NCBI RefSeq assembly: GCF_023476645.1
Contig: NZ_JAMCOJ010000005.1
Location: 248,001-312,000, forward strand
Source of the DNA: Cellulophaga sp. 20_2_10
GTDB taxonomy: Bacteria; Bacteroidota; Bacteroidia; Flavobacteriales; Flavobacteriaceae
Length of the DNA: 64,000 bases
Direction: 5' to 3'
The notes under the pieces were generated by a model, which saw only the letters and a program-made list of their open reading frames with translations, searched no databases and was not told the origin of the DNA. This document shows positions 28,993 through 46,182 of the stretch, piece after piece. The translations under genes and the position numbers were made by a program. Every line of letters starts with the position of its first letter. The stretch's first letter is position 1.

Positions 28993-29376
28993 TTAAGACC
29001 ATCCCGAACTTAAGTTACATAAAAATATATCTTGGATTCCATTTTTGGAAGTGTTTATAATATAAGCAAATTCTGGCTTCGTTCTATTTCCATAAAATTC
29101 ATAGGTAGAATGACCCAAAACACACATTCCACACTTTCCTTGTTTCATAGTAATATCGGTTGCACCTCTTGCAATTGCCCAATCAAACTGTTGTTTTACT
29201 GAAGCTAAAAATCTGTACTTATCTAAGTCTTCAAAATATTGGTTCTCATCTATCAGAGGTTCCAAAATAGAGCAATCTAAAGACAAACAAGCCTTTATGA
29301 AATGAGATATAATTTTTTGAGCTGATTCACCAGTTGTGGCTTCACTTTTTATCTTAAGTTTTATTAGTTCAGACAT
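28993..29376 (-). CDS. Conserved protein of unknown function (copy 1, next to att site)
   Basis: A 127-residue cytoplasmic protein without signal or membrane segments. Features: an N-terminal LIKLKIKSEATTGESAQKI, a helix with CLSLDCSILEPLIDE, a block FDWAIARGATDITMKQGKCGMC with a CGMC pair, and an ending with IFLCNLSSGW. A close copy lies at 34376-34762. Each copy points away from an attachment site about 160-410 bases upstream (29539 and 35174), and the flanking DNA is also similar. The CxxC could bind a metal. The family is not recognised. Confidence 0.65.
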   Translation of the reverse strand: MSELIKLKIKSEATTGESAQKIISHFIKACLSLDCSILEPLIDENQYFEDLDKYRFLASVKQQFDWAIARGATDITMKQGKCGMCVLGHSTYEFYGNRTKPEFAYIINTSKNGIQDIFLCNLSSGWS

Positions 29377-29538: not shown

Positions 29539-29597
29539 AAACCAAAAAAGCCTTTACATTTCTGTAAAGGCTTTTGTTTGCTTGTGGTCCCACATGG
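29539..29597. repeat. Left attachment-site repeat: tRNA 3' end plus terminator
   Basis: These 59 bases are identical to 52138-52196. They hold the last 13 bases of the tRNA (29585-29597) and the hairpin AAGCCTTTACA (29548-29558) / TGTAAAGGCTT (29563-29573) that follows the tRNA at its intact locus. They mark the far left end of the integrated DNA. Confidence 0.85.
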
Positions 29598-29726
29598 ACC
29601 ACGAATAATTTAATCACAATTAATTGAAATTAATTAAAACTCTTCGAAAACCCTTATCATATTAGTTTATATAAAAAATAGATTAATTAGAGTTAAGAGA
29701 GATTTCGGTTAATTCATCGAAAAAAG

Positions 29727-29746
29727 CACCCTTATCAACACCCTAA
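29727..29746 (+). other. Arm-type integrase site, left end of element A
   Basis: CACCCTTATCAACACCCTAA lies 36 bases before the integrase start. A near-identical copy lies at 35102-35122, close to the other end of element A. Each is itself a pair of CACCCTTA/CACCCTAA words. Confidence 0.6.
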
Positions 29747-29781
29747 TACTCTTTATTCCTATCTTTACAAAAAATCTAACT

Positions 29782-31065
29782 ATGGCTATAGTTCAAAGAG
29801 CAAAAGGTAAAATTCGGTTTGCATTCAAAGATGCTCTTAAGGTGTTGTCCAAAAACCCCAACAAAGAATCTTTAATTATGCTTCACTTCAGTTATGGCAA
29901 AATAAGGTTTAAGTATACTACTGGCTATTATTCTCGATACAATGACTGGGACTATTCCAATCAACGCTTAAAGAATAAAGCAACTATACTTAACAGAGCG
30001 TTTGTAAATGATTTCCTGAATTCTTTAAAAACCGAGTTATATAAAGAAGTTAGCTATTTAGAGTCCATACAGAGCCCTATTACAAAAGATGCTTTAAGAA
30101 GTAAGTTAGATATACTAACTAATAAGGACCCACAAGGCGAGAATAAAGCGCAAGACCTTAATTTCTACGAGTACTTTGATAATTTTTTGAACCTGAGAAA
30201 AAGTACGTTGAAAAAAATTACAATTCGCTCATATAACCAGACAAAAAGACTTCTTAAAGAATATAACAGTAGAATAGATTTTGATGGTATTGATTTGAGC
30301 TTTTACTATGGTTTTATTGAATTTCTAGAAGAAGATGATAAGTCCGTCAACACCATTGGTAAGCACATTAAAAATTTGAAATCAATATTAAGAAGTGCTA
30401 CACAAGATGGATTAAACAAAAATTTAGCCTATACCAAACGAGAATTTAAGGTTTTAAAAGAACGGACTACTGCCATCCATTTAGATGAGAAAGAATTGAA
30501 GCTTATGGCAGATTATGACCTCTCGGCATTCCCTAACTTAGATTTGGCAAGAGATATATTTCTTATTGGCTGCTATACTGGTCAGCGTGTTAGTGATTAT
30601 AATGGCTTAACAAAAGCTAACTTTTATCAAAAAGATGGTCTTCAATTTTTTAAAATCAAACAGCAGAAAACTAATAAAGAAGTTTTCTGTCCAGTAACAT
30701 TAGAGATTAAAACCATTCTAGCAAAATACAAGAATGTGCCTCCTAAAAAAATGAACGAACCAGATATAAACGAATACATAAAGGAAGTTGGTAGAAAGGT
30801 AGGATTAACACAAACGGAAATTAAGAACTATACTAGAGGAGGTATTGAACGAGCCGAAGAAATACCAAAATATAAAATGATTAGTTCGCATACTGCTAGG
30901 CGTTCTTTCTGCACAAATATGTACGAGAAAGGTATGCCTATTTATGATATTATGCATTTTTCTGGTCATGCCTCCGAGAAAGAGTTTTATAACTACATTA
31001 GAACAAAAAAAGAACAAAGAGCTATTAAAATTGCTCAAAGTGGTTTTTTCAATTTGTCGGATTAA
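29782..31065 (+). CDS. Tyrosine recombinase/integrase of element A
   Basis: A 427-residue phage/ICE-type integrase. The N-terminal arm-binding domain (to about 110) is followed by the core-binding domain (about 125-225) and the catalytic domain. The catalytic Arg is in CYTGQRVSDYNGL, the second box HxxR is in SSHTARRSF, and the third His and the Tyr nucleophile are in SGHASEKEFYNYI. It starts 185 bases inside the left att repeat and reads inward, as integrases of tRNA-targeting elements usually do. Confidence 0.92.
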   Translation: MAIVQRAKGKIRFAFKDALKVLSKNPNKESLIMLHFSYGKIRFKYTTGYYSRYNDWDYSNQRLKNKATILNRAFVNDFLNSLKTELYKEVSYLESIQSPITKDALRSKLDILTNKDPQGENKAQDLNFYEYFDNFLNLRKSTLKKITIRSYNQTKRLLKEYNSRIDFDGIDLSFYYGFIEFLEEDDKSVNTIGKHIKNLKSILRSATQDGLNKNLAYTKREFKVLKERTTAIHLDEKELKLMADYDLSAFPNLDLARDIFLIGCYTGQRVSDYNGLTKANFYQKDGLQFFKIKQQKTNKEVFCPVTLEIKTILAKYKNVPPKKMNEPDINEYIKEVGRKVGLTQTEIKNYTRGGIERAEEIPKYKMISSHTARRSFCTNMYEKGMPIYDIMHFSGHASEKEFYNYIRTKKEQRAIKIAQSGFFNLSD

Positions 31066-31097
31066 ATTACTCTTCAACGAAAATCACATAGTTACCC

Positions 31098-31129
31098 TTT
31101 GTTAAATATTTGTTAAATATTTGTTAAAG
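31098..31129 (+). repeat. Three tandem 11-bp repeats
   Basis: TTTGTTAAATA occurs at 31098-31108 and 31109-31119, and TTTGTTAAAG at 31120-31129. The set lies between the integrase and the HTH/replication genes and could bind the HTH protein or act as iterons for the initiator. Confidence 0.6.
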
Positions 31130-31280
31130 TCAGGTTTATATTAATTTATATAAACTCAACTTTTTGATTAATAGCTATTTATAAAAAAATTAGTTTTAAT
31201 TTTCATATAAACTAATATAACACTTTGATTTTCAGAATAATAGGTTGTAACTCTGCATTATAATTTTAAAATAATGTCAA

Positions 31281-31466
31281 ATGAAACAACAATTTTTAAG
31301 CAGACAAGAAGTCGCAAAGATGCTAGGCATCTCTTTGGTTACATTACACAATCATAACAAGAAGGGAATCTTAAAACCCTCACACAAAATCGGGAGAAAA
31401 CCATTGTACCTATATGAGGATATAATGGCACAAATTCAATTGTCTAACTACAAAAAAACTGCCTAA
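31281..31466 (+). CDS. Small MerR/excisionase-like HTH protein
   Basis: A 61-residue protein: FLSRQEVAKMLGISLVTLHNH then KKGILKPSHKIGRKPLYLYEDI. This is the winged-helix HTH_17 fold used by excisionases and by regulators of plasmid and ICE genes in Bacteroidota. It overlaps the next gene in a TAATG junction, so it is translated with the replication protein and may control excision or replication of element A. Confidence 0.8.
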   Translation: MKQQFLSRQEVAKMLGISLVTLHNHNKKGILKPSHKIGRKPLYLYEDIMAQIQLSNYKKTA

Positions 31467-32386
31467 TGATAGACAATATAAAATTCTACATCAACGATAA
31501 AGACAGATTTGAGCATAATCTTGAAACTCATCAAAACATTCCAATGAATGCAAAGTATGACGTTTATACTGGTGAGGCATTGAATTACCCAAAATCAGGA
31601 AAGCTACATAATTTAGATATCAGGCTTACTCAAGAAAGAGCCTCTGTTTTAGGTAGTCTACATAAGTTTAACAACTTATGGGTTTATAACGATAATCATA
31701 ATTACAACGATTTTAATGCTTGCGAGATAGATTGCGTCAACGATTTTATATGTGATTCTTTAGATATAGACCCCAGAGAAACTAAAATTACTAATTTAGA
31801 GTTTGGGTTTAATATATTGGTAGATGAAGATATCAAGGATATACTTGACAGGACTATTATGTACAATTTTGAAAATCATACCAGAAAAGAAACTTTTAGA
31901 GGGCAGGGTTATTTTAAACAGTTCTGTAAAACTGACTATAGTATAAAAGTTTATGACAAGTCTAAGCAATACAAAGTAAACCAGAATATTCTAAGAATAG
32001 AGTTGAAAATTACCAGAGCTAGACTCTTGAACAACTTAGGTATTTATTGTTTGGCTGATTTAAATAAAACCTCATACAAAAGCTTATTTAAAGCCTTTTT
32101 AGAGCGCTTTGACAAGTTGCTGATAGTTGACACATTGCGTATGATTAACGAAAAGCACAAGTCAAACAAAGACTTATTGATAGATGGCACCAACCCACAC
32201 TTCTGGATAGACTTAAGGAATAGGGGCACAAGAAATGTAAACGCCCACCAAAAAGCGAAATTTAAGAAATTGCTTAATGACAATTACTCTTTAATTACCC
32301 ATAATAAAATTAAAAATTCTCTTATAGCAAAGTTCAATGAACTGATGAATGATAATTGCACTAATTCTCTACAACAAGTTGCTTAA
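31466..32386 (+). CDS. Replication-initiator-like protein (phage/plasmid gene II/X type)
   Basis: A 306-residue protein. The blocks TNLEFGFNI, SIKVYDKSKQY and ILRIELKITRARLL correspond in type and order to the beta-strand core of gene II/X-like replication initiators of filamentous phages and plasmids; HFWIDLRNRGTRNV is near the C-terminus. I could not identify a conserved Tyr pair with certainty. No coat or assembly genes follow, so element A is better read as a small replicating integrative element than as a filamentous prophage. Confidence 0.5.
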   Translation: MIDNIKFYINDKDRFEHNLETHQNIPMNAKYDVYTGEALNYPKSGKLHNLDIRLTQERASVLGSLHKFNNLWVYNDNHNYNDFNACEIDCVNDFICDSLDIDPRETKITNLEFGFNILVDEDIKDILDRTIMYNFENHTRKETFRGQGYFKQFCKTDYSIKVYDKSKQYKVNQNILRIELKITRARLLNNLGIYCLADLNKTSYKSLFKAFLERFDKLLIVDTLRMINEKHKSNKDLLIDGTNPHFWIDLRNRGTRNVNAHQKAKFKKLLNDNYSLITHNKIKNSLIAKFNELMNDNCTNSLQQVA

Positions 32387-32491
32387 GAGTAAATGTCAGC
32401 TATAAGACAAATAACATTATACAAAAAAGTACTTTGCAGATATGTAATTAAACAGCTACATTTAAATTTTAAATAAATATTATATAAGTTA

Positions 32492-32597
32492 ATGTCAGAA
32501 GAACAAAAAAATAACTAATTTCTTTACAGATGTTGATGCTAAAATAGAAAATAGTAAAACCTTTAAAAAAGGGCTTTTACAAAAAATGTTTGTTTAA
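32492..32597 (+). pseudogene. Deletion scar: start of hsdM joined to the end of hsdS
   Basis: ATG at 32492 reads MSEEQKNN and stops. The first six residues match the usual start of Bacteroidota HsdM as I know it. In another frame, 32517-32597 reads NFFTDVDAKIENSKTFKKG then LLQKMFV and stop, the usual C-terminal end of HsdS proteins. The intervening bulk of both genes is missing. It lies directly before the toxin-like gene, so that operon once followed a type I modification system. Confidence 0.6.
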
Positions 32598-32614
32598 AAA
32601 ATTGTTAATAAGTA

Positions 32615-32626
32615 AACCTGTAGGTT
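32615..32626 (+). promoter_or_regulatory. Putative operator of the toxin-antitoxin operon
   Basis: AACCTGTAGGTT is an inverted repeat (AACCT/AGGTT) ending seven bases before the toxin ATG (32633). It overlaps a TAGGTTGA word that resembles a -7 element, with a TTG about 18 bases further upstream. This position suits repression by the HTH antitoxin. Confidence 0.45.
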
Positions 32627-32632
32627 GATTAT

Positions 32633-33175
32633 ATGAAAATAGTTGATATATTTGCAAAGAAATTATGTTCCATTGCCTACAAAAAAGTAGGTAGTGAAGA
32701 ATATGATATTTGTGAATACGATAGATTATTAGATTTATGGACAGATGTTAGTTATCTACATCAATATGCAATAGCTAATAAAGTAAAAAATATAGATAAG
32801 TTTGTAAAAGCAAGATTAAGAGACGCAGAAAAAATAGAAGACTTTTTAGAAGAACTTACTCAAGAAAACACACCGTTAGACTCATATTTTCATCAATTAG
32901 ATAATAATGAAACAGGTTTTAAACTACTATCATTACGTAAGGGTAAAGCATCTAAACAAGATGGTTTAAGACTATATGCAATTAAAATAGACGATGATTG
33001 TTTTTTAATAACAGGTGGTGCTATTAAAATGAGTTTAAAAAACGATGACCACAAGGATACTCAAAAAGAAATGGAAAAAATCGCAGAAGTCAAATCTATA
33101 TTACAAGATAATGATGTAATTGATAGCGAATCTTTTTACGAATTTAGAACAGAACTTGAAGATGACAACAAATAA
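32633..33175 (+). CDS. Putative toxin of a three-gene toxin/antitoxin/SecB-like operon
   Basis: A 180-residue protein. The N-terminal half is helical (CEYDRLLDLWTDVSYLHQYA). The C-terminal half has FKLLSLRKGKASKQDGLRLYAIKIDDDCFLITGGAIKMS, a basic loop then beta strands typical of HigB/RelE-like ribonuclease toxins, followed by KEMEKIAEVKSIL. Longer than common RelE proteins (about 90-110 residues), so the N-terminal part is an extra domain. The gene overlaps the antitoxin-like gene by 14 bases. Assignment rests on operon order and on this fold reading, not on a search. Confidence 0.5.
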   Translation: MKIVDIFAKKLCSIAYKKVGSEEYDICEYDRLLDLWTDVSYLHQYAIANKVKNIDKFVKARLRDAEKIEDFLEELTQENTPLDSYFHQLDNNETGFKLLSLRKGKASKQDGLRLYAIKIDDDCFLITGGAIKMSLKNDDHKDTQKEMEKIAEVKSILQDNDVIDSESFYEFRTELEDDNK

Positions 33176-33638
33176 AGAAAAATTTCAAAGCTTAATATCT
33201 AAAGAAAAAAGCAATACAGTTTCAAGAAATAGAGACCGTATTAAAAATAGAGCACGTTTAAGAGAGTCTCAAGATATTGCTCTTAAGGTGCTTAATAAAT
33301 TAAATGATTTGGGTTGGTCACAACGTAAATTTGCAGAAGAGTTAAATGTAACACCGCAGCAAGTAAATAAAATTGTTAAGGGTAAAGAAAATTTAACTTT
33401 AGAAACACAAGTAAAACTGCAAGAAGTATTAAATATACCCATATTAGCAAGTTATTACGAGAACAAAGTTCAGGCATTTTCTTTTGAAGATGTTTTAAAC
33501 TTAGGTATTGAGACACCTTTAAATCAAACATTAAATTATTCTGGAACTTCTTTTTATAAAGAACAGTTTAAAAGAGCTTTTAGTGTAGAGCCATTAATGG
33601 TAGCAGTTAAAGAATCTAATTATCAAATGGCATCATAA
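33162..33638 (+). CDS. XRE-family HTH antitoxin-like protein
   Basis: A 158-residue protein; I use the ATG at 33162 (MTTNKEKFQ) because the longer frame begins inside the toxin gene. The HTH is at about 44-85: LNKLNDLGWSQRKFAEELNV then TPQQVNKIVKGKENLT. After it lies a tail (about 95-158, FEDVLNLGIETPLNQTL) that could clasp the toxin or the chaperone. It stops one base into the start of the next gene (TAATG). It would both neutralise the toxin and repress the promoter through the operator at 32615. Confidence 0.75.
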   Translation: MTTNKEKFQSLISKEKSNTVSRNRDRIKNRARLRESQDIALKVLNKLNDLGWSQRKFAEELNVTPQQVNKIVKGKENLTLETQVKLQEVLNIPILASYYENKVQAFSFEDVLNLGIETPLNQTLNYSGTSFYKEQFKRAFSVEPLMVAVKESNYQMAS

Positions 33639-34069
33639 TGAAAGAAGCTAACGTAGGTTTTGCATTAGTTGGTATTAAGACCGAGCAATATGCCACTTTT
33701 AATGAAAATTATAAAGACAAAGCTAAAACAGGATTAAATACAGGTTTAGAATTTAAGTTTAATAAAGAAGATAAAATAATAGCAGTAGTAGTTACTATTA
33801 CTTTCGAGCAAAATAAGAAAGCCTTTCTTAAGTTGCAAGTTAGTTGCCACTTTAAAATATCAGAAGATTCATTTAAAGGCTTTTGTAATGATTCCATAAT
33901 TACTTTGCCAAAAGGTTTTATGACTCATTTAACTATGATTACCGTTAGCTCTGTTAGAGGCGTATTACACGCTAAAACAGAAGGGACTATCTTTAACAAA
34001 TACCTATTACCTACTTTAGATGTTACAGAAATGGTAAAAGAAGATGTTGATTTTTCTTTAGATAATTAA
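33638..34069 (+). CDS. SecB-like chaperone of the toxin-antitoxin operon
   Basis: A 143-residue protein. The middle is beta-rich (GLEFKFNKEDKIIAVVVTITF, KLQVSCHFKI). The C-terminal part, a helix SSVRGVLHAKTEGT then YLLPTLDVTEMV, lines up in kind and spacing with the SecB end ([20 protein letters not shown]). In toxin-antitoxin-chaperone modules a SecB-like protein protects an aggregation-prone antitoxin, and gene order toxin, antitoxin, chaperone is the same here. It starts within the antitoxin stop codon, so the three genes are one translation unit. Confidence 0.5.
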   Translation: MKEANVGFALVGIKTEQYATFNENYKDKAKTGLNTGLEFKFNKEDKIIAVVVTITFEQNKKAFLKLQVSCHFKISEDSFKGFCNDSIITLPKGFMTHLTMITVSSVRGVLHAKTEGTIFNKYLLPTLDVTEMVKEDVDFSLDN

Positions 34070-34375
34070 AAGACTTGTAATATTTTCCACATTGTTTATG
34101 CCGTTTTTCTAAAAAATAATTTTTTTTTAACGACCACCCAAGCAGAGCAAGTAATTAGAAAATAATTTAGTAAACCAATTAATTGGTTTAGGTCACAAAT
34201 TGGAAACTATAAAAACCGAAGATTAAGCATTAGAAAAACAACCAAGTGTCTTACAAAGAGAATCGATAAGCACCAGAATCACAGAAAAAATAAAAGACTT
34301 TGTAAAAACTTTTATTAATGGAGTTGGAGAATAGATAAACTAATATTAAATCGATAAACTATAAGTTTATATAAT
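34070..34375. other. Intergenic region of element A with a decayed reading frame
   Basis: About 300 bases after the SecB-like gene. An open stretch at 34227-34334 reads ALEKQPSVLQRESIST then ITEKIKDFVKTF and INGVGE before a stop, and a shorter stretch earlier reads TTTQAEQVIRK. They look like remnants, possibly of hsdR or another lost gene, but I cannot assign them. Confidence 0.35.
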
Positions 34376-34762
34376 TTAGTTACCCCATCCAGAACTCCCA
34401 TTGCAAAGGAATATATCGTTAATGCCTTTTTTGTTGGTATTGATGATATAGGCAAATTCTGGTTTTACCTTACTCCCATAAAATTCGTAGGTAGTATGAC
34501 CAATAACACACATTTCGCACTTTCCTTGCTTCATAGTAATATCGGTCGCACCTCTTGCAATTGCCCAATCAAACTGCTGTTTCAAAGAAGCTAGAAACCT
34601 GTATTTGTCTAATTCTTCAAAAAACTGGTCTTCATCTATCATAGGTTCTAATATTGAACAGTCTAAGGCTAAACAAGCTTTTAAGAAATGAGATATAATT
34701 TTTTGAGCAGATTCCCCCGAGGTGGCTTCACTCTTAATTTTAAGTTTTATTAGCTCTTGCAT
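34376..34762 (-). CDS. Conserved protein of unknown function (copy 2, element A)
   Basis: A 128-residue paralogue of the gene at 28993-29376, with nearly the same sequence: LIKLKIKSEATSGESAQKI, FDWAIARGATDITMKQGK, CEMC in place of CGMC, and IFLCNGSSGW. The two are far more alike than chance. Both lie just left of an att site and their upstream sequences share blocks (near 29427-29467 and 34817-34857). The best reading is that this gene travels with elements that use this tRNA. Function unknown; the two Cys pairs suggest a metal site. Confidence 0.65.
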   Translation of the reverse strand: MQELIKLKIKSEATSGESAQKIISHFLKACLALDCSILEPMIDEDQFFEELDKYRFLASLKQQFDWAIARGATDITMKQGKCEMCVIGHTTYEFYGSKVKPEFAYIINTNKKGINDIFLCNGSSGWGN

Positions 34763-35101
34763 ATAAATGAAATATTTGAGATAAGGGTAATATTGAATTT
34801 TTATTTAATAAAAACAAATTTATTATACAAATGGTTCAACAAGTCTACCTACCTCCATACTTATGCTTTTAGCACAATAAAACAATACTAAATTATTTAT
34901 TTCTATATGATGCACTATTGCACAATACCAGTATTTTTAAAAATTGATGTATGTCTATAAATCAGACGCCCCTTGGATTAGACCCCATATGTTTTAGGAG
35001 AAAAGGGATGCACCCCCCTTTTGAAGTTATCCACGATGAAAAATCTTTTCGTGATTTTTAAGCCATAAAAAAATGAGATTAGAGTATTTCTATTTAAAAA
35101 A

Positions 35102-35122
35102 CACCCTTACCAACACCCTTAA
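35102..35122 (+). other. Arm-type integrase site, right end of element A
   Basis: CACCCTTACCAACACCC followed by TTAA matches the motif at 29727-29746 in all but a few positions and in the same orientation. The pair frames element A. Confidence 0.6.
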
Positions 35123-35134
35123 AAAACAAAAAAC

Positions 35135-35165
35135 CCATAACTACTTAATTAAAAGTGTGTTATGG
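35135..35165. terminator. Hairpin next to the tRNA fragment
   Basis: CCATAAC (35135-35141) and GTTATGG (35159-35165) form a 7-bp stem, with ATTTATT after it and an A-run before it. It could terminate transcripts from either side. Confidence 0.5.
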
Positions 35166-35173
35166 ATTTATTA

Positions 35174-35222
35174 TGTGGTCCCACATGGGCTCGAACCATG
35201 GACCCCCTGATTATGAGTCAGG
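35174..35222 (-). pseudogene. 3' half of the tRNA gene at the A/B junction
   Basis: These 49 bases equal 52182-52230. They start exactly at the first base of the anticodon stem and run through the T arm and acceptor 3' strand, so the copy lacks the D arm and the 5' acceptor strand. It cannot give a working tRNA. It marks the crossover region shared by elements A and B. Confidence 0.85.
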
Positions 35223-35333
35223 ACTTTTTTTTATTCATATAGTTTCATTAGTCTTCTTTTGTATTGAAAATCAATTAATTAAGTAATTAAATTTTTCTTA
35301 TGGTTATATTTAATTTACTTTTAACCTACTAAT

Positions 35334-35353
35334 TGTTGTACTAATGTTGTATT
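35334..35353 (+). other. Arm-type integrase site, left end of element B
   Basis: TGTTGTACTAATGTTGTATT immediately precedes the integrase start (35357). A close copy lies at 52114-52133 near the right end. Both contain two TGTTGYA words. Confidence 0.55.
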
Positions 35354-35356
35354 GAT

Positions 35357-36583
35357 ATGCCCACTGTAAAATCTGTTTTGCGCAAGACGAAATTAACAAA
35401 TAATAAATACCCTATATACTTAAGGGTAACTTATTTAAGAAAATCTAAGTTTTTTAGAACTAACTTTAATGCTTCTCTTAAGGAGTGGAACCAAAAAACG
35501 GGTCAGTTTAATTCTAAAAATGAAAACTCAACACAAAATAATAGAGTTCTTAAAAAATTTGAAAGCAAAGTATTAGAAATAGTAAATGGATTTGAATTAG
35601 AAGATAAGGATTTTAGCTTAGAAACTATAGAAAGAGCTTTAAGAGTTGAAGCAAATCCTATTACTGACAATTTTTTTATTTTCTTCAGCATAATTACCAG
35701 AGAAATGCTTGATAGTGGAAGAACTGGAAGCGCTAAAGTGAATAAAGACACCTACAACTCATTAAAATTATTTAACAAGGGCTTATTAGAACTAACTTTT
35801 GAAGATTTAAATGCCGATTTTCTGTATAAATATGAGGTATTCTTAAGAAAAAGAGGAGGAACAGATGGTGGTATAGGTGTTAAAATGCGAGCCATTAGAA
35901 GTGTTTATAATTTAGCCATAAAACGTAACATTACTAAGGAAATTAACTATCCCTTTAAGAAATATAAAATAGCTAAATTAAAGGGTAAAAGCTTAAAAAG
36001 AGCTTTAAATTTAGAAGACATATATACTATAAAGAGTTTTGATTTTTCAAACCAACAACATTTAATAAACTCAAGAAACTATTTTTTATTTAGCTTTTTT
36101 ACCCGAGGAATGAATTTTGCAGATATGATGAGGCTAAAATGGTCTAATATTTCTAACGATAAAATATTCTATACCAGATCTAAAACCAATTATAATTTCT
36201 CAATAAAAATTTTAAGCCCTGTTCAAGAAATATTGGATTATTACAAAACCAATGCACTTTCTACTGAATATGTTTTTCCTATATTATTAAGGGACGATCT
36301 TAAACCTAACCAAATAGAGAATAGGAAACATAAAGTTTTAAAAGCTTTTAATAAAGATTTAAAAGCCATAGGCACTTTATGTAAAATAGATCATAAGTTA
36401 ACTAGTTATGTTGCAAGGCATAGTTATGCAAACTGTATGAGAAAAGCAGGCAGCTCTACAGAGATTATTAGCGAGAGTTTAGGACATCAGGAACTAAGTA
36501 CAACAAAAGCTTATTTAAAAGAGCTAGGAGCGTCTGAAATAGATAACGCTTGTGATTCTTTATTATTAAATACAGCCTCTTAA
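35357..36583 (+). CDS. Tyrosine recombinase/integrase of element B
   Basis: A 408-residue integrase of the Bacteroidota ICE/Tn type. The core-binding region (about 105-205) is followed by the catalytic domain with the first Arg in FFTRGMNFADMMRLKW, the box-II R in YVARHSYANCMRKAG, and LGHQELSTTKAYL with the last His and the Tyr nucleophile. It differs clearly from the integrase of element A, so the two elements entered independently. It begins about 130 bases right of the tRNA fragment and reads inward. Its stop is two bases from the stop of hsdR. Confidence 0.92.
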   Translation: MPTVKSVLRKTKLTNNKYPIYLRVTYLRKSKFFRTNFNASLKEWNQKTGQFNSKNENSTQNNRVLKKFESKVLEIVNGFELEDKDFSLETIERALRVEANPITDNFFIFFSIITREMLDSGRTGSAKVNKDTYNSLKLFNKGLLELTFEDLNADFLYKYEVFLRKRGGTDGGIGVKMRAIRSVYNLAIKRNITKEINYPFKKYKIAKLKGKSLKRALNLEDIYTIKSFDFSNQQHLINSRNYFLFSFFTRGMNFADMMRLKWSNISNDKIFYTRSKTNYNFSIKILSPVQEILDYYKTNALSTEYVFPILLRDDLKPNQIENRKHKVLKAFNKDLKAIGTLCKIDHKLTSYVARHSYANCMRKAGSSTEIISESLGHQELSTTKAYLKELGASEIDNACDSLLLNTAS

Positions 36584-36584
36584 T

Positions 36585-39500
36585 TTAAGCACTCCACTCG
36601 CTATACTGCCCTTCTGCTTGTTGCATTATTTCTTCTAATATTTCGTTAAGTTTAGACAAACTTACTTTTTTACGCAGTTCTTTCTTTACAGCTAAGCGAA
36701 TTGAAGCTTTTGCATTTTCCTTTTTGGTCCAATCTAGTTGAAGATTAGATTTTACTGCTTTTACAATGGCGTGTACAATATCTTGTATTGGGCCTTCCTC
36801 TTTTACTATTTCCTTTTTTGCTGCTAGAATATCATAAAAAGCCAGCTCTTCTTCACTTAAACCTAACTCCCCTGTTCTTTTATCATCATTTTGCAAATTT
36901 TTAGCCCTCTCTATTAGCTCTGCTATTGTTGCATAACTATCTAAAGCATTTGTATGATATCTATCTATTACTTTTTCAAGCTCTTCTCTTAAAGACGTGT
37001 ACTTTTTAATGTTTTTATGAAGTCGTAATTTAATTTCATCTTTTAAAATATTTTTAATCAATTCTATTTTTAAAGCGTGACCATCTTTTTCTTCTTTTGC
37101 ACCTAAAAGAAAGGTTTCATCTAAAATTGAAATATCTGGCTTTTCAATACCTGCCATAGCAAATACATCAACTATGTCTTCAGAATCTATACTTTGACTA
37201 ATTAATTCTTTGATTTTCTCTTTTTGTTCGCCTCTACTTGATGTTACAGATTTTGCGTTACGCAAAGCTTTAGATACATGTTGCGCAAATAGCACATCTA
37301 CAGCATAATCTTGAATTTCGGGTTGACTTTTAACTATAGACAATAAACTTGATAAGGTTTTCTCGGCTTTCATGAAATTATTAGCATCCTCATCGTATTT
37401 AATGACATGATTTACTGCGCTTTTTACTAATAATACTTTGTCTCCATCACGCAAACGTTTCCAATCGGAATAATCAATAGTTTTAGGTATAAAGGTTTTG
37501 CAAATTTCAACTTGATTAAAAAACAACTCTAAAGCCTGTTCTATATCTATAGTTGGCTTTCCTTGTCCTCCACTTCCTGTATATTTACTGGTTGCTGTTT
37601 TTAAATTATCACCAATCCCAATATAATCTACAATAACACCGTTTTTCTTATCTTTTAAAACACGATTAGTCCTTGTAATGGCTTGCATTAAATTATGTCC
37701 TTTCATAATTTTGTCAACATACATGCTGTGTACACAAGGTGCATCAAAACCAGTTAGCCACATATCTCTAACAATTACAATTTTTAAAGGATCGTCTTCT
37801 TTTTTTAATCTCTTTTTTAAAGCTTCGGTAGCATCTTTTGTTCTAAAATGCGGATTCCATTCTATTGGATCTTTAGATATATTACCCGTCATTACCACAG
37901 CTACTTCTGGACAGTCCTCTAAAGCGGTTAACGCATTATACATTTTAACGCAATTGCGCCTACTCATGCAAACTACCATAGCTTTTCCTGCTAAAGTGTT
38001 AGTTCTGTTTGTGTAATGATTTAGTATGTCTTTTGCTATTTTATTTACCCGATCTTCACTTCCTGCTGCATCCTCAATCGCTGCCCATTTTAAGTTACTA
38101 TTATCTTCCACATCCTCGGTAATAGCATCTACTTCATCATCTATAGTTTCGTTCCATAAATGGAGTTTTGCCAAACGTGGCTCGTAAAATATATTTACAG
38201 TTGCGTTATCTTCTACAGCTTGTTTAATATCGTAGGTATGTATTACAGATCCAAACACTTCTTGTGTATCTGCATCTTTACTATCTACGGGTGTACCTGT
38301 AAAACCTATAAAGGATGCATTAGGCAACGCTTTGCGCAAATTAGAAGCAAATCCATCTAGCAAACCATATTGTGTCCTGTGTGCTTCATCTGCCATAACA
38401 ATAACGTTCTGGCGCTCTGATAAAACTGGATGTTCCAATTCGCCCAACGCTTCATCGGTGGTTTGTTTAAGCCGGAACTTTTCTATGGTCGTAAAAATAA
38501 CTCCACCAGCGCCTGCGCTTAATAATTGTCGTAAATCGTTAGTAGAATCAGCATGTTGTACTTCGCCCACCAAATCTTTTGCAAGTATAAAGTTTTCGTA
38601 CAATTGCATATCTAAATCACTACGGTCTACTTGTATAACAATGGTAGGATTTTTTAGTTCGTGAAGACTACGCAATATACCAGTGTAAATTGCCATAGAA
38701 ATACTTTTACCAGAACCTTGTGTATGCCATATTACACCAATACGACCATCGCCAAACGGACGTACCGATTTTTTAGCTGCTTCTACCGCAAAATTGACTC
38801 CGAAAAACTGATGGTATTTTGCACCTTTTTTTATAAGTGACCCATTATGATCTTCATGAAAAATGAAATTCTTTATATAATTTAAGATTCTCTCTTTAGG
38901 AAACAACCCCATTAACAAGGTATGCATCTGAAAATCGTTATCCTGCACGGTGTCTTTACCATTAATACTTTTCCATGGTGCAAACCACTCCATACCAGAA
39001 CTAAACATACCGTGTTGTGCCTCGTTACCATCGCTAATAATAGTTATGGCGTTATACTCAAACAATAACGGAATGTCTTTTTTGTAATGCTGTATTTGGT
39101 TGTGTGCTTCTTTTATATTAGTGTTTTGATCGTACCAATTTTTAAGCTCAAAAACAATTAATGGTAAACCATTTATGTAAATGATAATATCTGGACGTCT
39201 TTTATTTTTACCAATAATAGAAAACTGATTAACTGCCCAAAACGTATTATTTTCTGGGTTATTAAAGTCTATTGGGTAAATGTGTACTGCTTTTTCTTTA
39301 CCCGAAGCATCCTCGTAAGCAAACTCAATACCTTTAGTTAGTTTTAAATGAAAGGTACGGTTACGATGCTCTAGATCTGCTCCTGCATTATTAGAAAATT
39401 CTGCAACTGCTAGATTTTGAATCTCTTCTGGAATATGCGGATATTGTTGTTGTATAAACTGAAGCAACTGGTCTTTTAATACCACATCTGTATTGTTTTG

Positions 39501-39587
39501 TGGTAACTGTGTACCCAATTGGTGTTTGTAACCTAAATCGGTTAGCCAATCTATAGTAGCTTGTTCTATGGTTGCTTCTGTTGTCAT
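36585..39587 (-). CDS. hsdR: Type I restriction enzyme, R (motor and nuclease) subunit
   Basis: A 1000-residue HsdR. The N-terminal nuclease has the PD-ExK residues D133, E147 and K149 (RRPDIIIY, VFELKN). The motor follows with Walker A TQGSGKSIS (289-297), DEAH box MADEAHR (398-404) and GFTGTP. It translocates DNA and cuts unmethylated DNA far from the recognition site, in complex with HsdM and HsdS. It is the last gene of the set on this strand and is separated from hsdS by a repeat-rich gap. Confidence 0.93.
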   Translation of the reverse strand: MTTEATIEQATIDWLTDLGYKHQLGTQLPQNNTDVVLKDQLLQFIQQQYPHIPEEIQNLAVAEFSNNAGADLEHRNRTFHLKLTKGIEFAYEDASGKEKAVHIYPIDFNNPENNTFWAVNQFSIIGKNKRRPDIIIYINGLPLIVFELKNWYDQNTNIKEAHNQIQHYKKDIPLLFEYNAITIISDGNEAQHGMFSSGMEWFAPWKSINGKDTVQDNDFQMHTLLMGLFPKERILNYIKNFIFHEDHNGSLIKKGAKYHQFFGVNFAVEAAKKSVRPFGDGRIGVIWHTQGSGKSISMAIYTGILRSLHELKNPTIVIQVDRSDLDMQLYENFILAKDLVGEVQHADSTNDLRQLLSAGAGGVIFTTIEKFRLKQTTDEALGELEHPVLSERQNVIVMADEAHRTQYGLLDGFASNLRKALPNASFIGFTGTPVDSKDADTQEVFGSVIHTYDIKQAVEDNATVNIFYEPRLAKLHLWNETIDDEVDAITEDVEDNSNLKWAAIEDAAGSEDRVNKIAKDILNHYTNRTNTLAGKAMVVCMSRRNCVKMYNALTALEDCPEVAVVMTGNISKDPIEWNPHFRTKDATEALKKRLKKEDDPLKIVIVRDMWLTGFDAPCVHSMYVDKIMKGHNLMQAITRTNRVLKDKKNGVIVDYIGIGDNLKTATSKYTGSGGQGKPTIDIEQALELFFNQVEICKTFIPKTIDYSDWKRLRDGDKVLLVKSAVNHVIKYDEDANNFMKAEKTLSSLLSIVKSQPEIQDYAVDVLFAQHVSKALRNAKSVTSSRGEQKEKIKELISQSIDSEDIVDVFAMAGIEKPDISILDETFLLGAKEEKDGHALKIELIKNILKDEIKLRLHKNIKKYTSLREELEKVIDRYHTNALDSYATIAELIERAKNLQNDDKRTGELGLSEEELAFYDILAAKKEIVKEEGPIQDIVHAIVKAVKSNLQLDWTKKENAKASIRLAVKKELRKKVSLSKLNEILEEIMQQAEGQYSEWSA

Positions 39588-39601
39588 ACTTTATTCTTTC
39601 A

Positions 39602-39685
39602 GTCATTGCGAGACTTTTTTAAGTCGTGCAATCTGTTTGTTGTTTCCTTTCATGAGATTGCCACGTCCTAAGTCCTCGCAATGAC
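39602..39685. repeat. REP-like nested inverted repeat between hsdS and hsdR
   Basis: GTCATTGCGAG (39602-39612) pairs perfectly with CTCGCAATGAC (39675-39685), and between them GTGCAATCT/AGATTGCCAC pair as well. This GTCATTGCGAG form is a common interspersed repeat in Bacteroidota genomes. The right arm lies inside the hsdS 3' end (stop at 39668), so the last residues of HsdS (VENVIART) come from the repeat. Confidence 0.7.
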
Positions 39686-40954
39686 GTTTTCTACTTGTGT
39701 TCTAAATGCCTTTAAATGTACTTCTCCACTTATTAGTTTTGGTAATAGCGTGTCACGGAGTTTTGTTAAGGTTTGGTTTTCTAAAATAAGAGCATTTTGT
39801 TCTGCAATATTTGACTGTATCAATTTTGAAAACTCTTTGATTATTTCAACACCTCCAAAAGGAATAGGATAATTAAAAATATCAACTAACTTAATGCTTG
39901 CTTGACTCGCACTACCTTGAGCACTATTTACTATATAATTTAAAAACCTACTGTTCTTTAAAATACAATATAATAATCCTTGGTGCTGCTCATTATCAAT
40001 ATCCATTTTTAATCTAACTGCATTTTGATTTAACAAACCTCCTTCTGCTGTTTTTGGTACTCTAACAACCTTACCTACAACAGATGAATAATTTGGTGGC
40101 CAAGAACCAACTGTAGCAATAATGACATCATCAGTATTTAATGAATAAGCAATATGTTTTAAAGCTAACTCAGTGGAGATTTTATTACAAGATTCTACAT
40201 TTATAGAATTATGAGTTGTATCACTTATTCTTACAACTAATTTACCATTATCTTGATACCATTTTGATTTAAAAGCAAAACCTTTTTGATGATTTACAAA
40301 ATCTCCTAAAATACTTATTCCCCAACCTTTAGGAATTAATCCCAACTCACTATCCACAAACTCACCATCTTTAAAAGGACCAAAATCTACAAACCAATGT
40401 TTGTATAATGCCATAGCCATGTCTTCTAAGGTTTTGTTTGTGGCTAGGTTGTTTTCTATTTTATCGTCTATTGCTGATAGGATGCTGGCTATTGCTTTTT
40501 GTTCTGGGAGAGGTGGTAAGTCTAGTTCCAAATTTTTAAAAGCCTCTTTAGCTATTCTTTGTCTACCTGAAGTTCCAATCATATTAGCTTCAGCAAATTG
40601 TCTCACAAAGGGTTCTCTAGATAAATAGTAAACAAAATCATTATCCGAAATATTTTCTTTTCCTCTAAAAACTAAAAATTCCGTTGAACCAAAACCTTCA
40701 TTATTTTTCAACCCTTGGACTTGACAAATTTTTCCATTCTGCAAACAAGGTGTGATTCTTGCAAATAATGTATCTCCATTTTGAAACTTTGCTCCACCTT
40801 TTAACTTCTTAATATTTGAAGGTAAAACTGTCCTATTATTAGGATCTAAGTCTTTCATTTCAACAAAAGAGTATTCTTCCTTTGAATTAAATTTCATTCT
40901 AGGATTTATATCGATGAAGTCAAAAAGATTATATATTTTCCAGTTATTTGGCAT
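39668..40954 (-). CDS. hsdS: Type I restriction enzyme, S (specificity) subunit
   Basis: A 428-residue HsdS with two target-recognition domains. The first (residues to about 150) is followed by the conserved helix PLPEQKAIASILSAIDDKIEN (about 145-165). The second is followed by a matching helix ending LRDTLLPKLISGEVHL. The variable parts decide the DNA sequence recognised and cannot be predicted here. The C-terminal residues after LKAFRTQ are supplied by the repeat at 39602-39685, which suggests that the original end was replaced. Confidence 0.92.
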   Translation of the reverse strand: MPNNWKIYNLFDFIDINPRMKFNSKEEYSFVEMKDLDPNNRTVLPSNIKKLKGGAKFQNGDTLFARITPCLQNGKICQVQGLKNNEGFGSTEFLVFRGKENISDNDFVYYLSREPFVRQFAEANMIGTSGRQRIAKEAFKNLELDLPPLPEQKAIASILSAIDDKIENNLATNKTLEDMAMALYKHWFVDFGPFKDGEFVDSELGLIPKGWGISILGDFVNHQKGFAFKSKWYQDNGKLVVRISDTTHNSINVESCNKISTELALKHIAYSLNTDDVIIATVGSWPPNYSSVVGKVVRVPKTAEGGLLNQNAVRLKMDIDNEQHQGLLYCILKNSRFLNYIVNSAQGSASQASIKLVDIFNYPIPFGGVEIIKEFSKLIQSNIAEQNALILENQTLTKLRDTLLPKLISGEVHLKAFRTQVENVIART

Positions 40955-41082
40955 TAGTTTTTTGTTACTTGTTCACCATTTTTATTTGTTCATGTAACAT
41001 GAACAAACTTGTTTTTTAAACATTAAAAATGATTTGTCTCTAGTTTTTATTTTAAATTATAAAAAAGAAAAAAAAGAAAAAC

Positions 41083-41098
41083 CCCTGTAAACACAGGG
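41083..41098 (-). terminator. Terminator between the AlbA_2 gene and hsdS
   Basis: CCCTGT (41083-41088) and ACAGGG (41093-41098) form a short stem, with AAAAACCC on one side and TTTTTG on the other, and T-runs in both orientations. It lies inside the restriction gene block and would partly uncouple hsdS and hsdR from hsdM. Confidence 0.6.
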
Positions 41099-41132
41099 TT
41101 TTGTTCTTTTTATTTTTAATTTTATTTTCAAT

Positions 41133-42785
41133 TTATTTTTTTTTAGCCAATTTATAGGTTCTATTTTTTCTCCCTCCTAAAGGTAATAAACTGCCTTCTT
41201 TTGTTAAGGCATACAAACATTTTTGGATATCACTAAGTTCCACATCTTTAATATGCTTATGGATTTCTTGTTTAGAACGTTCTCCATTGTATTTTAGGTA
41301 TTCAATAATTAAATGCTTTAACTGCTCCTTATCTATTGTTTTTAAGGTAGGGACAATATTTAATTTTGACTGAGAGAACAACGCTGGATTTAATAAATAC
41401 TCTGTTCCTTTCTTTATTCCTCTTGTGGTTAAAATAGATTTATCTAATAAACTACCTAACCAACTTCTCAATCTATCTTCTGTTGCCAACTGCAATTTAT
41501 AAGATAATTGTGTCGAAAGTATTTTTTTATCAGAAGCAACTAAACCAAGTAAAATATATTCTTTTTGGCTTAATTTAAAATGCTGTGAAATATATTCTAA
41601 AATTTCTAATGCCTCTTTATCCACTACACCAGAATATACGGTAACGGAAGTTTTATTAATAGAGCTTTCAATAATCGGCAAAGGCTTAATCTCTCTTACT
41701 AACTTTTCATAAATTAAATCATAACCAGAACCTTCACCTTCCATTAATCCTAAATCATGAAGTGTTTGTATTAAATGAGGGTTACGTCTATGCCTTTCGT
41801 GTAATATATTATCAGCAGTAATTCCCAAAGGTAAACCTCCAGGGTTTGTAATAACCATTCTGTCTGGGTATACTTCAATGAATATATCTCCTGAAATGGT
41901 ATATCGTTTATGAGCAATGGCATTAATAAGTAATTCTCTAATGACTTCCTTCGGATAATTACGTAATTGTTTTCTAAAGAGCCCACTAGAAATCTCGGTA
42001 GAGTAATTTAGTTCAATAGCTTCTTTTTCAATTTCAACAAGTAACTCTTTAGGATTGTGTAAATGAAAATGCCAGTCCTTTTTTCGTATTTTCTCCTCTA
42101 AATTGTTGTAAACAATATATTGAACAGTTAAAGGATAACTTAATCTTGCCCTTTGATTGGCCTTACCTAACCAAATAATACCTAAATTGGTTAAAAAACC
42201 ATCTGGAGTAATTAATTGATAAAATTCTAAAATTTCCTCATTAGATTTTTCTTTTATAAAATCTGAAACAAATTTTGAATTTTGAATCTGCTCTACAAAA
42301 TAAGTAACTTGATTTATATCTGCATCCTCTAATGTTACGCGTCCTACAGATACTAACTCCCATTGAAAAGCACTTTTCTCAGCAGCTAAATTTGTAAGTT
42401 CTTCCCCTGAAACAGGAACACAATTATCTGTAACTCGAATAAAAACTTTACCAGTAGAAGTAGTTGCAATTGTGCGTGTTGATGGATGTATTACAAATTT
42501 AAAATACTCACCTCCGTTTTCGTGAACAATAATTTCAGGATTTAAAAGACCAACTGAATCTGTTAAATCTCTTAATCTTGAAATAGTTTTATTTGCTACT
42601 TCTTGTTCAATTTTTTGATTTCTAGGAGGTTCAGATTTTCGATCTTCTATACCCACTATTATTGCACCACCTTGAGCATTTGCAAAAGAAACGCAAGTTT
42701 CTGCCAAACTTTTTAGATCTGATCTAGGTCCAATGACCTTTTTTAAGCTTTTAAAATCAATATTACTGCTTTCTGAAAAATCCAT
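41133..42785 (-). CDS. AlbA_2/Schlafen-type putative DNA-binding ATPase inserted in the RM operon
   Basis: A 550-residue protein. The N-terminal AlbA_2 domain begins SSNIDFKSLKKVIGPRSDLKS and has the core CVSFANAQGGAIIVGIEDR (about 35-53). The middle has HATPase_c_4-type motifs RELLINAIAHKRY (about 280-292), ITNPGGLPLGI and EGEGSGYDLIYEK. The C-terminal half is a series of winged-helix-like segments. Such proteins are common beside type I restriction genes and may modulate them or act in defence; their activity is not settled. It sits between hsdM (start 44378) and hsdS and is followed by its own terminator. Confidence 0.8.
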   Translation of the reverse strand: MDFSESSNIDFKSLKKVIGPRSDLKSLAETCVSFANAQGGAIIVGIEDRKSEPPRNQKIEQEVANKTISRLRDLTDSVGLLNPEIIVHENGGEYFKFVIHPSTRTIATTSTGKVFIRVTDNCVPVSGEELTNLAAEKSAFQWELVSVGRVTLEDADINQVTYFVEQIQNSKFVSDFIKEKSNEEILEFYQLITPDGFLTNLGIIWLGKANQRARLSYPLTVQYIVYNNLEEKIRKKDWHFHLHNPKELLVEIEKEAIELNYSTEISSGLFRKQLRNYPKEVIRELLINAIAHKRYTISGDIFIEVYPDRMVITNPGGLPLGITADNILHERHRRNPHLIQTLHDLGLMEGEGSGYDLIYEKLVREIKPLPIIESSINKTSVTVYSGVVDKEALEILEYISQHFKLSQKEYILLGLVASDKKILSTQLSYKLQLATEDRLRSWLGSLLDKSILTTRGIKKGTEYLLNPALFSQSKLNIVPTLKTIDKEQLKHLIIEYLKYNGERSKQEIHKHIKDVELSDIQKCLYALTKEGSLLPLGGRKNRTYKLAKKK

Positions 42786-42788
42786 ATA

Positions 42789-44378
42789 TTAAAATTTATC
42801 AAAATTTTCTAAAATCTGTTTCTGCAATGCATTTCCTTTTTCAAACTGGGTTTCCAACTGCGCTTTTAATGTTTCCATTTTATCTTCAAATGGGATACCA
42901 TCATCTTCAACAGCTTCTGTACCAACGTAAATACCAGGTGTTAGTTTGTAGTCTTGTTTTTTAACTTCTTCTAAAGTTGCACTATAGCAAAAACCATCTT
43001 CATTTTTATAAGAACCGTCTAAGTTTCTCCAATTATGGTATATTTCCGTTACTTTATTAATATCGTCGTTTGTAAAAACACGGAGTTTTCGGCTTTCCAT
43101 AGTCCCCATTTTAGAGGTATCGATAAACAAAATATCATTAGAACGCTCTCTATGCACACCATCTTTACCATCTCTGTTTTTACTTAAAATAAAAATACAC
43201 GCTGGAATGCCTGTAGTTAAAAATAGTTTGTCTGGTAAACGTACAATACAATCTACCATACTATTGTCTACCATATGTTGACGTACATTCTTTTCTCCTT
43301 TATTATTAGAAGTCATTGCGCCGTTTGCCATAACTACACTTGCAGTACCAGTATCGCTTAAATGAGACCAAAAGGTTTGCATCCACATATAATTGGCATT
43401 ACCATCTGTGGTAAACTCCTCTTTTGGGCCAAATAGTCGTGGATCATTTTCCGGTAAATCTTCTGGATGCCATTGACTAACATTAAACGGTGGATTTACA
43501 ATAATAAAATCTGCTTCTAAATCAGGAAATTTATCTTGTAGTAAAGAGTCTCCTAAGCGTACATCAAAAGATAAATCTCGTAGTGCTAAATTCATTTTAC
43601 ATAAACGCAGTGTGCCATCGTAACGTTCTTGCCCGTAAATAGAAATGTTTTTCTTGTCGCCATTATGTGCTTGTAAAAACTTTAAAGATTGCACAAACAT
43701 ACCTCCAGAACCACAGGCAGCATCAAAGATTTTACCCTCGTAAGGCTCTATCATTTCTACCAATAAACGCACAATACTTCCTGGTGTGAAAAATTGTCCT
43801 GCACCAGAACCTTCTGCTATAGCAAACTTACCAATATAATACTCGTAAACACGGCCTAAAATATCACTGTCTGGGTTTTCCTTTTCAGATAACTTAGGGT
43901 TTGCTAAAAGATTAATTAAACCCGCAACTTGCTTTGCTGTTAGCTGACTTTTCACAAAGATGCGCGGTAAAATACCTTTTAAATCTGGTCTATATGTCGC
44001 TAATGTTTGGTCTAACAAATCAAAAGCATCATCTACTAAAACTTTAATATTATCTTGCTCGGCATTGTCTTGTAGAAATTGCCAAGTAGCTTTTTCAGGA
44101 ATAATATAAGTGCTTTCAGATAAATACTCATCTGGATCCTCTAACACATAGTTTTGCTCTTCAATATCTTCTGTAAAATATTCTGATGATTTATCGTTAA
44201 ACAAAATTTTTAAACTATCCCTACGTAACTCGTAACGCTCGGAAATGTGTTTTAAAAATATTAATGGTAGTATGTAATCCTTATATTGATTTTCAGCCAC
44301 AGCGCCTCGAAGTTCATTTGCTGCTTTCCACAACTCTTTTTCAAAGTTGATATCTGCTTTGGTTGTATTTGTACTCAT
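42789..44378 (-). CDS. hsdM: Type I restriction enzyme, M (DNA methyltransferase) subunit
   Basis: A 529-residue HsdM. The N-terminal helical domain has ELWKAANELRGAVAENQYKDYILPLIFLKHIS, the SAM-binding motif is FDAACGSGGMF (218-228), and the catalytic motif NPPF (295-298) marks an N6-adenine methyltransferase. TPGSIVRLLVEMI (198-210) precedes the SAM motif as in the family. It stops four bases before the AlbA_2 gene. It starts the cargo block at the left of the mobilisation genes. Confidence 0.95.
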   Translation of the reverse strand: MSTNTTKADINFEKELWKAANELRGAVAENQYKDYILPLIFLKHISERYELRRDSLKILFNDKSSEYFTEDIEEQNYVLEDPDEYLSESTYIIPEKATWQFLQDNAEQDNIKVLVDDAFDLLDQTLATYRPDLKGILPRIFVKSQLTAKQVAGLINLLANPKLSEKENPDSDILGRVYEYYIGKFAIAEGSGAGQFFTPGSIVRLLVEMIEPYEGKIFDAACGSGGMFVQSLKFLQAHNGDKKNISIYGQERYDGTLRLCKMNLALRDLSFDVRLGDSLLQDKFPDLEADFIIVNPPFNVSQWHPEDLPENDPRLFGPKEEFTTDGNANYMWMQTFWSHLSDTGTASVVMANGAMTSNNKGEKNVRQHMVDNSMVDCIVRLPDKLFLTTGIPACIFILSKNRDGKDGVHRERSNDILFIDTSKMGTMESRKLRVFTNDDINKVTEIYHNWRNLDGSYKNEDGFCYSATLEEVKKQDYKLTPGIYVGTEAVEDDGIPFEDKMETLKAQLETQFEKGNALQKQILENFDKF

Positions 44379-44624
44379 CTAAATTTGAGAGATAATGTTT
44401 GGTTAAACTTGACACAAAAACCGATTAAACAAAGGCATTGCGCTTAATAATAAAAATTATATCTAATACGCTCTAAATAATTTGAATACTCCTATTGACC
44501 CTCTATTTTATTATAGAATATTCAAAATTTCAGGGTTAAAACGCAGTAAAAAAACCGTAATATAAATATACAATTATATAATGTTAGACCTAATATAAAC
44601 TCTCAAAATAATAACTAGTATTAC

Positions 44625-44858
44625 CTAAAACATTTTATCTAATTGGTCTTTTCTTATGGTCATTCGTTCTTTAATTTCATCTTCATTCTCTTTAAAAAAA
44701 GACAATACAATATTACTTATTACCTGACTTCTAGTAACATCAAAAAGATCTGCAATTAAAGATATTCTTGCGTGAGTAGCATCAGAAATGTTAACTACTT
44801 TTTTACCTTGCTTTTCATTATTAGTAATAGGAGCCGTGATTGTTTTTTTTATACTCAT
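44625..44858 (-). CDS. Small DNA-binding protein (ribbon-helix-helix-like)
   Basis: I use the ATG at 44858 (MSIKKTITAPITNNE), giving 77 residues; the longer frame reads through the hairpin-rich region 44887-45013 and is not credible. KKVVNISDATHARISLIADLF is strand-then-helix, followed by DVTRSQVISNIVLSFF, the spacing of ribbon-helix-helix or Arc-type proteins. It lies right beside the nested hairpins at 44887-45013, so it may bind them as a relaxosome helper or as an autoregulator. Confidence 0.55.
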   Translation of the reverse strand: MSIKKTITAPITNNEKQGKKVVNISDATHARISLIADLFDVTRSQVISNIVLSFFKENEDEIKERMTIRKDQLDKMF

Positions 44859-45226: not shown

Positions 45227-45361
45227 TTACTTTTTGGTAGATTTACTTGGTTTTAGCGTTGGCTTATTACCTGGTGTATTCTTGTTATCTCTTCTTCTTT
45301 TATCCAGTGTACCATCTTCCTTTTTAGGTTTTGGACCGGGCTTAATTGCTTGAATTTTCAT
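45227..45361 (-). CDS. Very small lysine-rich basic protein, unknown
   Basis: ATG at 45361 gives 44 residues, MKIQAIKPGPKPKKEDG then DKRRRDNKNTPGNKP and a lysine-rich end. Half the residues are charged or Pro. The high net charge suits nucleic-acid binding. The frame is short enough that chance cannot be excluded; its position in a compact operon supports it weakly. Confidence 0.35.
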   Translation of the reverse strand: MKIQAIKPGPKPKKEDGTLDKRRRDNKNTPGNKPTLKPSKSTKK

Positions 45362-45459
45362 ATTGCGCTGAATTTAAATTATTTATAATTGTATCAAAAA
45401 TAATTAATCGCAAATTAAATGCTTTACGGAAAGCCGTAATTTGATTCTAAAATTTGGAT

Positions 45460-45849: not shown

Positions 45850-45867
45850 TATACTGGAGTTAAGGTA

Positions 45868-46089: not shown

Positions 46090-46182
46090 TATTCTGTTTT
46101 TAATAATTTTAGCTAAAATTATACAATCCAATACAACTTAACAAAAATTAACAGTAATTTTCTTATCCAATACTTGAGGCAC

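Follow-up and report, generated by a model that had tools for sequence, protein, structure and literature searches.

A toxin-antitoxin-chaperone-like operon kept among the remnants of a type I restriction locus in Cellulophaga sp. 20_2_10

The stretch of Cellulophaga sp. 20_2_10 DNA that we analyzed (64,000 nucleotides, the window) carries a three-gene operon. We read it, with a probability of about 0.75, as a portable toxin-antitoxin-chaperone (TAC) module of a kind found in defence loci, in which the chaperone would control the toxin pair and phage infection would trigger abortive infection. The operon sits between scraps of a type I restriction system, on a mobile element with an integrase gene, and in related loci the tail of the antitoxin follows the presence of the chaperone gene.

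Three genes and their predicted products

The genes lie on the forward strand and encode a toxin-like protein, T (32633-33175, 180 amino acids [aa]); an XRE-type antitoxin, A (33162-33638, 158 aa from its ATG); and a SecB-like chaperone, C (33638-34069, 143 aa). T and A overlap by 14 nucleotides (33162-33175) and A and C by one (33638), and all three frames are open, as the sequence-only reading had described. For A, the open reading frame (ORF) list gives a longer version beginning with TTG at 33120; this start is mechanical, and we preferred the ATG at 33162, which agrees with the start of the relative in locus L003. The order toxin, XRE antitoxin, SecB-like protein, also proposed earlier, recurs in 35 further deduplicated loci (30 with toxins of the close family and 5 with distant toxins), and the overlapping ORFs and conserved order place the three genes in one operon. 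T, A, and C are under purifying selection, with dN/dS values against L003 of 0.17, 0.16, and 0.07, respectively (dS up to 1.29). Just upstream of T we found no match to the Bacteroidota-type promoter pattern, which occurs 16 times in the window against 9.7 expected. The inverted repeats upstream of the operon are short or AT rich, and none stands out as an operator.

Profile comparison and structure prediction together show that C is SecB-like in its predicted fold. In a profile-profile comparison, C matched SecB at 95.7% (E 8.5e-9, 130 columns), and 60 shuffles scored far lower. The structure model of C has a pLDDT of 74.9, and both Foldseek (best E-value, 1.4e-3) and VIA gave SecB as the best match. 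The fold of the third protein had been named beforehand as a point to check, and it came out SecB-like. C also matches the PADLOC model PDC-M64C at 1e-12. It matched no Pfam family above the cut-off, its profile found no match among PDB sequences, and E. coli SecB taken alone gave 0.4% by profile, which is no match. Two distant relatives, L107 and L111, have the T-A-C order with a C protein above the Pfam SecB cut-off, and that of L107 also matches the PADLOC model PD-T4-9_C (the CmdC model) at 2.2e-11. Relatives of C turned up once in the genome-contig scan, once among plasmids, and not among phages; a viral scan using one distant C found none. On a viral contig (L042:5056-6408), a different toxin, PDC-M64B-like by eye, accompanies a C homologue 42% identical to that of the window, a pairing which suggests that C may move between toxin types.

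A has a helix-turn-helix at residues 48-94, followed by a 63-residue tail ending in -YQMAS. It matches Pfam HTH_3 (8.7e-11) and the PADLOC PDC-M64 antitoxin model (3.5e-13), as well as a HigA-like model at 2.4e-9, which is below the cut-off of that model. The XRE domain with a C-terminal tail noticed in the first reading is thus present, and in related loci the tail goes along with the chaperone gene, as described below.

T was harder to place. Because of its kinship to the PDC-M64B-type and Gp49/RelE toxins, we infer that T belongs with the RelE/HigB-like translation inhibitors and carries an additional segment. PADLOC PDC-M64B matches T at 5.5e-5, over residues 66-159 only. At the level of profiles, the T family matches PDC-M64B-type toxins at 98.1% (E 1.3e-13), and these in turn match Gp49/RelE at 92.9% (E 3.7e-7); a direct comparison of T with Gp49 gave 13% and a score of 25.5, against a maximum of 16.9 in 60 shuffles. 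Residues K103, R113, G128, I131, and K132 are invariant in 49 of 49 close-family members. No Pfam family reached the cut-off, the Pfam HigB and Gp49 models being unmatched; searches of Pfam, NCBIfam, and PHROGs assigned neither T nor C to a family and yielded just weak scattered matches. The T profile had seven matches among PDB sequences, all at chance level, and no PADLOC PD-T4-9 model (the comparison being with these models) matched T at E≤1. An AF2 model of T from a five-sequence alignment had a pLDDT of 48.8 and no fold match, and we discarded fold searches with this model as too poor. The earlier toxin call therefore receives indirect support, from the profile links through PDC-M64B toxins and from conservation, set against the missing Pfam family and the 13% with Gp49. 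In the profile alignment with PDC-M64B-type toxins, T has an extra stretch; that the extra segment may be helical, as claimed earlier, comes from the low-confidence model.

A lost restriction operon on an integrative element

In Aureibaculum marinum, another member of the Flavobacteriaceae, the three genes are part of a type I restriction operon with the order hsdM-hsdS-T-A-C-hsdR, all on one strand. The window aligns with the A. marinum locus L021 at 80% over 32542-34223 (hsdS end through hsdR start), and 34225-34333 aligns with the end of hsdR at 91%, which bears out the suggestion that the operon lies behind a former restriction system. In the window itself, the hsd genes of this locus are scraps on both sides of an intact TAC. 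Upstream (32492-32597, forward strand), the first codons of hsdM (MSEEQK-, start placed by eye against L003) run into the last codons of hsdS, the latter recognized by tblastn with A. marinum HsdS at 5.9e-10. Downstream (34131-34334, forward strand), approximately the first 30 codons of hsdR adjoin approximately its last 33, as seen by blastn and tblastn with hsdR of L021 and L003, with the outer ends set by eye. The TAC was kept when the surrounding restriction genes were deleted.

The slot between hsdS and hsdR holds T-A-C in L003 and in L126, whose hsdS is split over two overlapping frames. In L118 it holds T-A and a gene for a 388-aa protein, with no C. The nesting is exact in these three loci. 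In L038, hsdM-hsdS is followed by three genes, then T-A-C, and then a reversed hsdR. On the tree, a supported branch unites the toxin of the window with those of L003, L118, L126, and L057; around the last of these, the 10 kb examined of an 11.7-kb contig contain no hsd gene. A wider association of hsd genes with T is not proven: of 53 regions around T, some of them truncated by the contig, 10 contain such genes, versus 1 of 20 controls taken at a distance of 100 kb (p 0.13). The same slot is used by toxin pairs in E. coli, where DarTG2 is reported between hsdS and hsdR (PMC12255303).

The mobile-element setting also held up. A tyrosine integrase (29782-31065, forward strand; Pfam Phage_integrase, 1.3e-14) lies upstream of the operon on the TAC-bearing element. 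It is followed on the same strand by a small helix-turn-helix protein, excisionase-like to judge by its size and place (31281-31466; Pfam HTH_17, 2e-7), and by a 306-aa element protein from the ORF list with no Pfam match (31466-32386). The putative att repeat GTGGTCCCACATGG is present in three exact forward-strand copies, with 0.03 expected: at 29584-29597; at 35175-35188, with a longer piece of the tRNA 3′ end; and at 52183-52196, which is the 3′ end of an intact tRNA gene with a CAT anticodon (52183-52257, reverse strand). Marked off by these repeats, two integrase elements appear to stand in tandem at the tRNA gene, the TAC-bearing one at 29584-35175 and another at 35175-52183. The second element carries a primase-like gene, MobA- and ParA-like genes (by eye), and a second type I restriction operon (36585-44378), complete-looking and different from the former host of the TAC. 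Between its hsdM and hsdS is a gene with AlbA/Schlafen and HATPase_c_4 domains (41133-42785). Two reverse-strand genes, 28993-29376 and 34376-34762, encode paralogous proteins of 127 and 128 aa with no Pfam match; they are 5386 bases apart and share 80% DNA identity over 300 nt.

The TAC module moves among defence loci as a cassette, seen in four genomes with differing defence genes upstream. A block of about 3.05 to 3.08 kb in L022, consisting of T-A-C and the sequence that follows, is 96% identical to L024 and 92% to L027 (where the toxin lacks an in-frame start), and 1.56 kb of L022 is 97% identical to L025; upstream of the common block, no alignment of L022 with these three loci was reported. 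PADLOC recognizes a type I restriction subunit upstream of the TAC in L022, MkoC in L027, and a type IIG-like methylase with a PLD/DISARM-like helicase in L024. In L025, BLAST against other hsd proteins revealed a type I restriction operon there. Among hand-picked neighbours, 8 of 10 had PADLOC matches at 1e-5, versus 3 of 10 control proteins (p 0.035, for a test set that was not blind).

Antitoxin tails and chaperones across related loci

We searched overlapping sets of 299 family, 395 class, and 395 phylum genomes for relatives of the toxin and found matches in 18, 19, and 31 of them, respectively. The comparison was based on 52 toxin loci, 36 with C next door (C+; 31 with close and 5 with distant toxins) and 16 without (C-). 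We left out T ORFs shorter than 150 aa, near-copies (90% identity over T residues 31-120), two C- loci with less than 300 bases downstream, and two T loci with no antitoxin call (L087 and L091); L058, L061, and L105 were reassigned to C+ after a wider look. Uncorrected for shared ancestry, the median tail is 58 residues (range, 22 to 143) in the 36 C+ loci versus 27.5 (5 to 64) in the 16 C- loci, aromatic residues make up 10.8% of the 36 C+ tails versus 2.3% of the nine C- tails of at least 20 residues, and the antitoxin ends in A, S, or G at 26 of 36 C+ versus 5 of 16 C- loci.

Shared ancestry as the cause of this link was our main worry, and we addressed it with independent pairs. A careful tree of 45 toxins, omitting the five distant and two long-branch ones, has supported branches that force at least seven changes of C state. 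Seven independent pairs were drawn from it in 200 pairings. With a tail cut-off of 45 residues, six pairs were concordant in 143 pairings, seven in 48, and five in 9, and none was opposed. The median p was 0.03 for tails of at least 45 residues and 0.016 for at least 50, both cut-offs having been picked after the lengths had been seen. A quick tree of all 52 toxins gave six pairs, mostly five of them concordant, with one opposed in a few pairings and a median p of 0.06. The antitoxin extension is thus tied to the chaperone, as would be expected if the antitoxin depended on the chaperone because of its tail. On these trees, chaperone and tail appear to have been gained or lost together several times in this toxin family. 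Tentatively, and at somewhat less than even odds, we suggest that the family switches repeatedly between a two-gene and a chaperone-controlled form, tail and C together, which would turn a toxin pair in a restriction locus into a phage-sensing second defence and back.

There are counter-cases. In 10 of the 36 C+ loci the antitoxin has a last residue other than A, S, or G, and C is also found beside antitoxins with tails of just 22 and 30 residues. Conversely, some C- antitoxins have tails of 34 to 64 residues, many of them Lys rich, for which we offer no explanation. Whole-genome searches of 14 C- genomes found no C match (E 0.01) in 11, an unlinked C in two, and a separate TAC with a distant toxin in one. 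The two genomes with an unlinked C are among those with long-tailed C- antitoxins. Their C genes, L198 and L199, have no T or A found in their flanks, and these chaperones possibly act in trans. A small search showed the antitoxin tail of L071 to end like a C protein (46.7% over 30 residues, E 0.002), which reads as if tail and C had been lost in one deletion. Three IMG/VR contigs have a two-gene T-A without chaperone, the antitoxins being 102 to 123 aa as called. Other arrangements include a single 291-aa frame that joins A and C, beside a split toxin gene (L064:2362-3237, also L132) and three tandem T-A pairs without C (L129; L056, L063, and L065).

Proposed mode of action and known relatives

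We propose that the TAC is most likely an abortive-infection module. A would bind and neutralize T and would probably repress the operon through its XRE domain. Its 63-residue tail, with a small-residue C terminus of the ClpXP-degron kind, would keep A unfolded and protease prone unless C covered the tail and shielded A, as the comparative pattern suggests. Once C was drawn off (an unfolded structural protein of the phage is the most plausible cause), A would be degraded and T would stop translation, leading to abortive infection. An integrase element at the tRNA gene would have carried the module within hsdM-hsdS-[T-A-C]-hsdR, and the module would have been kept after the hsd deletion. Toxicity, neutralization, degradation, trigger, and phage defence we infer by analogy with CmdTAC and HigBAC: CmdTAC is reported to work by such chaperone-release logic (PMC11618068), the trigger of HigBAC is given as a phage tail protein (PMC11980606), and the dependence on C would follow the ChAD logic of chaperone addiction (PMC5105189).

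The same operon could instead serve mainly to prevent loss of its host locus or integrative element by post-segregational killing, with no phage sensor. It outlasted the restriction genes, it moves as a cassette between loci, and plain two-gene relatives exist, including the three IMG/VR contigs, all of which fit such a role; yet it failed to prevent the loss of the very genes around it, and defence genes are common among its neighbours (8 of 10 against 3 of 10). Moreover, the SecB-type TACs CmdTAC (PMC11618068), MqsRAC (PMC9519451), and HigBAC (PMC11980606) are described as acting against phage. On balance, we hold this role to be rather unlikely. The frames might also be open just because the hsd deletion is recent, the operon being a decaying relic. 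The 80 to 91% identity of the hsd scraps to A. marinum does allow a young deletion, but all three frames are open and dN/dS is 0.07 to 0.17 (although most of the divergence may predate the deletion), and we think a relic very improbable.

The idea that the operon guards defence cargo is weakened in its strict sense, in which hsd products restrain T and phage inactivation of restriction frees it, as PrrC guards EcoprrI. The exact hsdS-hsdR position in L003, L126, and L118 suits such a guard, and so does the DarTG2 pair in the same slot in E. coli (PMC12255303). In the window, however, the TAC is intact while no hsd gene of that locus is, although the different, complete-looking type I system at 36585-44378 in the neighbouring element leaves some room for a guard; moreover, near-identical TACs adjoin quite different systems. 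With the TAC still whole after the loss of its hsd genes, we do not adopt the guard as the main reading and judge it improbable; abortive infection under chaperone control remains the reading we prefer.

Modules of this kind are already known. Three things are new to us: this branch of toxins, a TAC that was nested in a type I restriction operon and survived it, and the way in which tail and chaperone change repeatedly and in concert. In the open-access literature searched, we found no report of the three. Toxin pairs were already known from within type I restriction operons; the present case adds a chaperone-controlled module to them, and one that survived the loss of its host operon. Laboratory studies of chaperone addiction in toxin pairs have used grafted tails (PMC5105189). 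Sister operons that have or lack tail and chaperone, including some at the same position between hsdS and hsdR, are natural matched pairs in which to test addiction.

Among characterized systems, CmdTAC (PD-T4-9) shares the T-A-C order and the SecB-like third protein, and the C protein of L107 matches its PD-T4-9_C model. As described in PMC11618068, however, CmdT is an ADP-ribosyltransferase, whereas T looks RelE-like, and CmdA consists of two N-terminal helices and a long unstructured part, whereas A is of the XRE type. HigBAC and the mycobacterial HigBA-SecB TAC are likewise reported to combine a RelE-superfamily toxin, a HigA-type antitoxin with a C-terminal extension, and a SecB-like chaperone (PMC5105189, PMC11980606); T differs in its 180 aa and in matching neither Pfam HigB nor Gp49. 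The RptR-RMS-DarTG2 island of E. coli has a toxin pair between hsdS and hsdR, but in the account given of it DarTG2 is a two-gene ADP-ribosyltransferase pair, described without a chaperone (PMC12255303). The suggestion of a new TAC subgroup stands insofar as Pfam has no family for T or C, and gives way insofar as PADLOC already lists related genes as the candidate PDC-M64. This is the closest entry in the databases, and no paper found in the open-access literature searched mentions it by name. Against the PDC-M64 models, A (3.5e-13) and C (1e-12) match, and T matches partly and weakly (5.5e-5, judged by E-value), over residues 66-159 only, having an extra stretch relative to PDC-M64B-type toxins. 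The toxin of the more distant relative L107 matches PDC-M64 at 1.4e-45.
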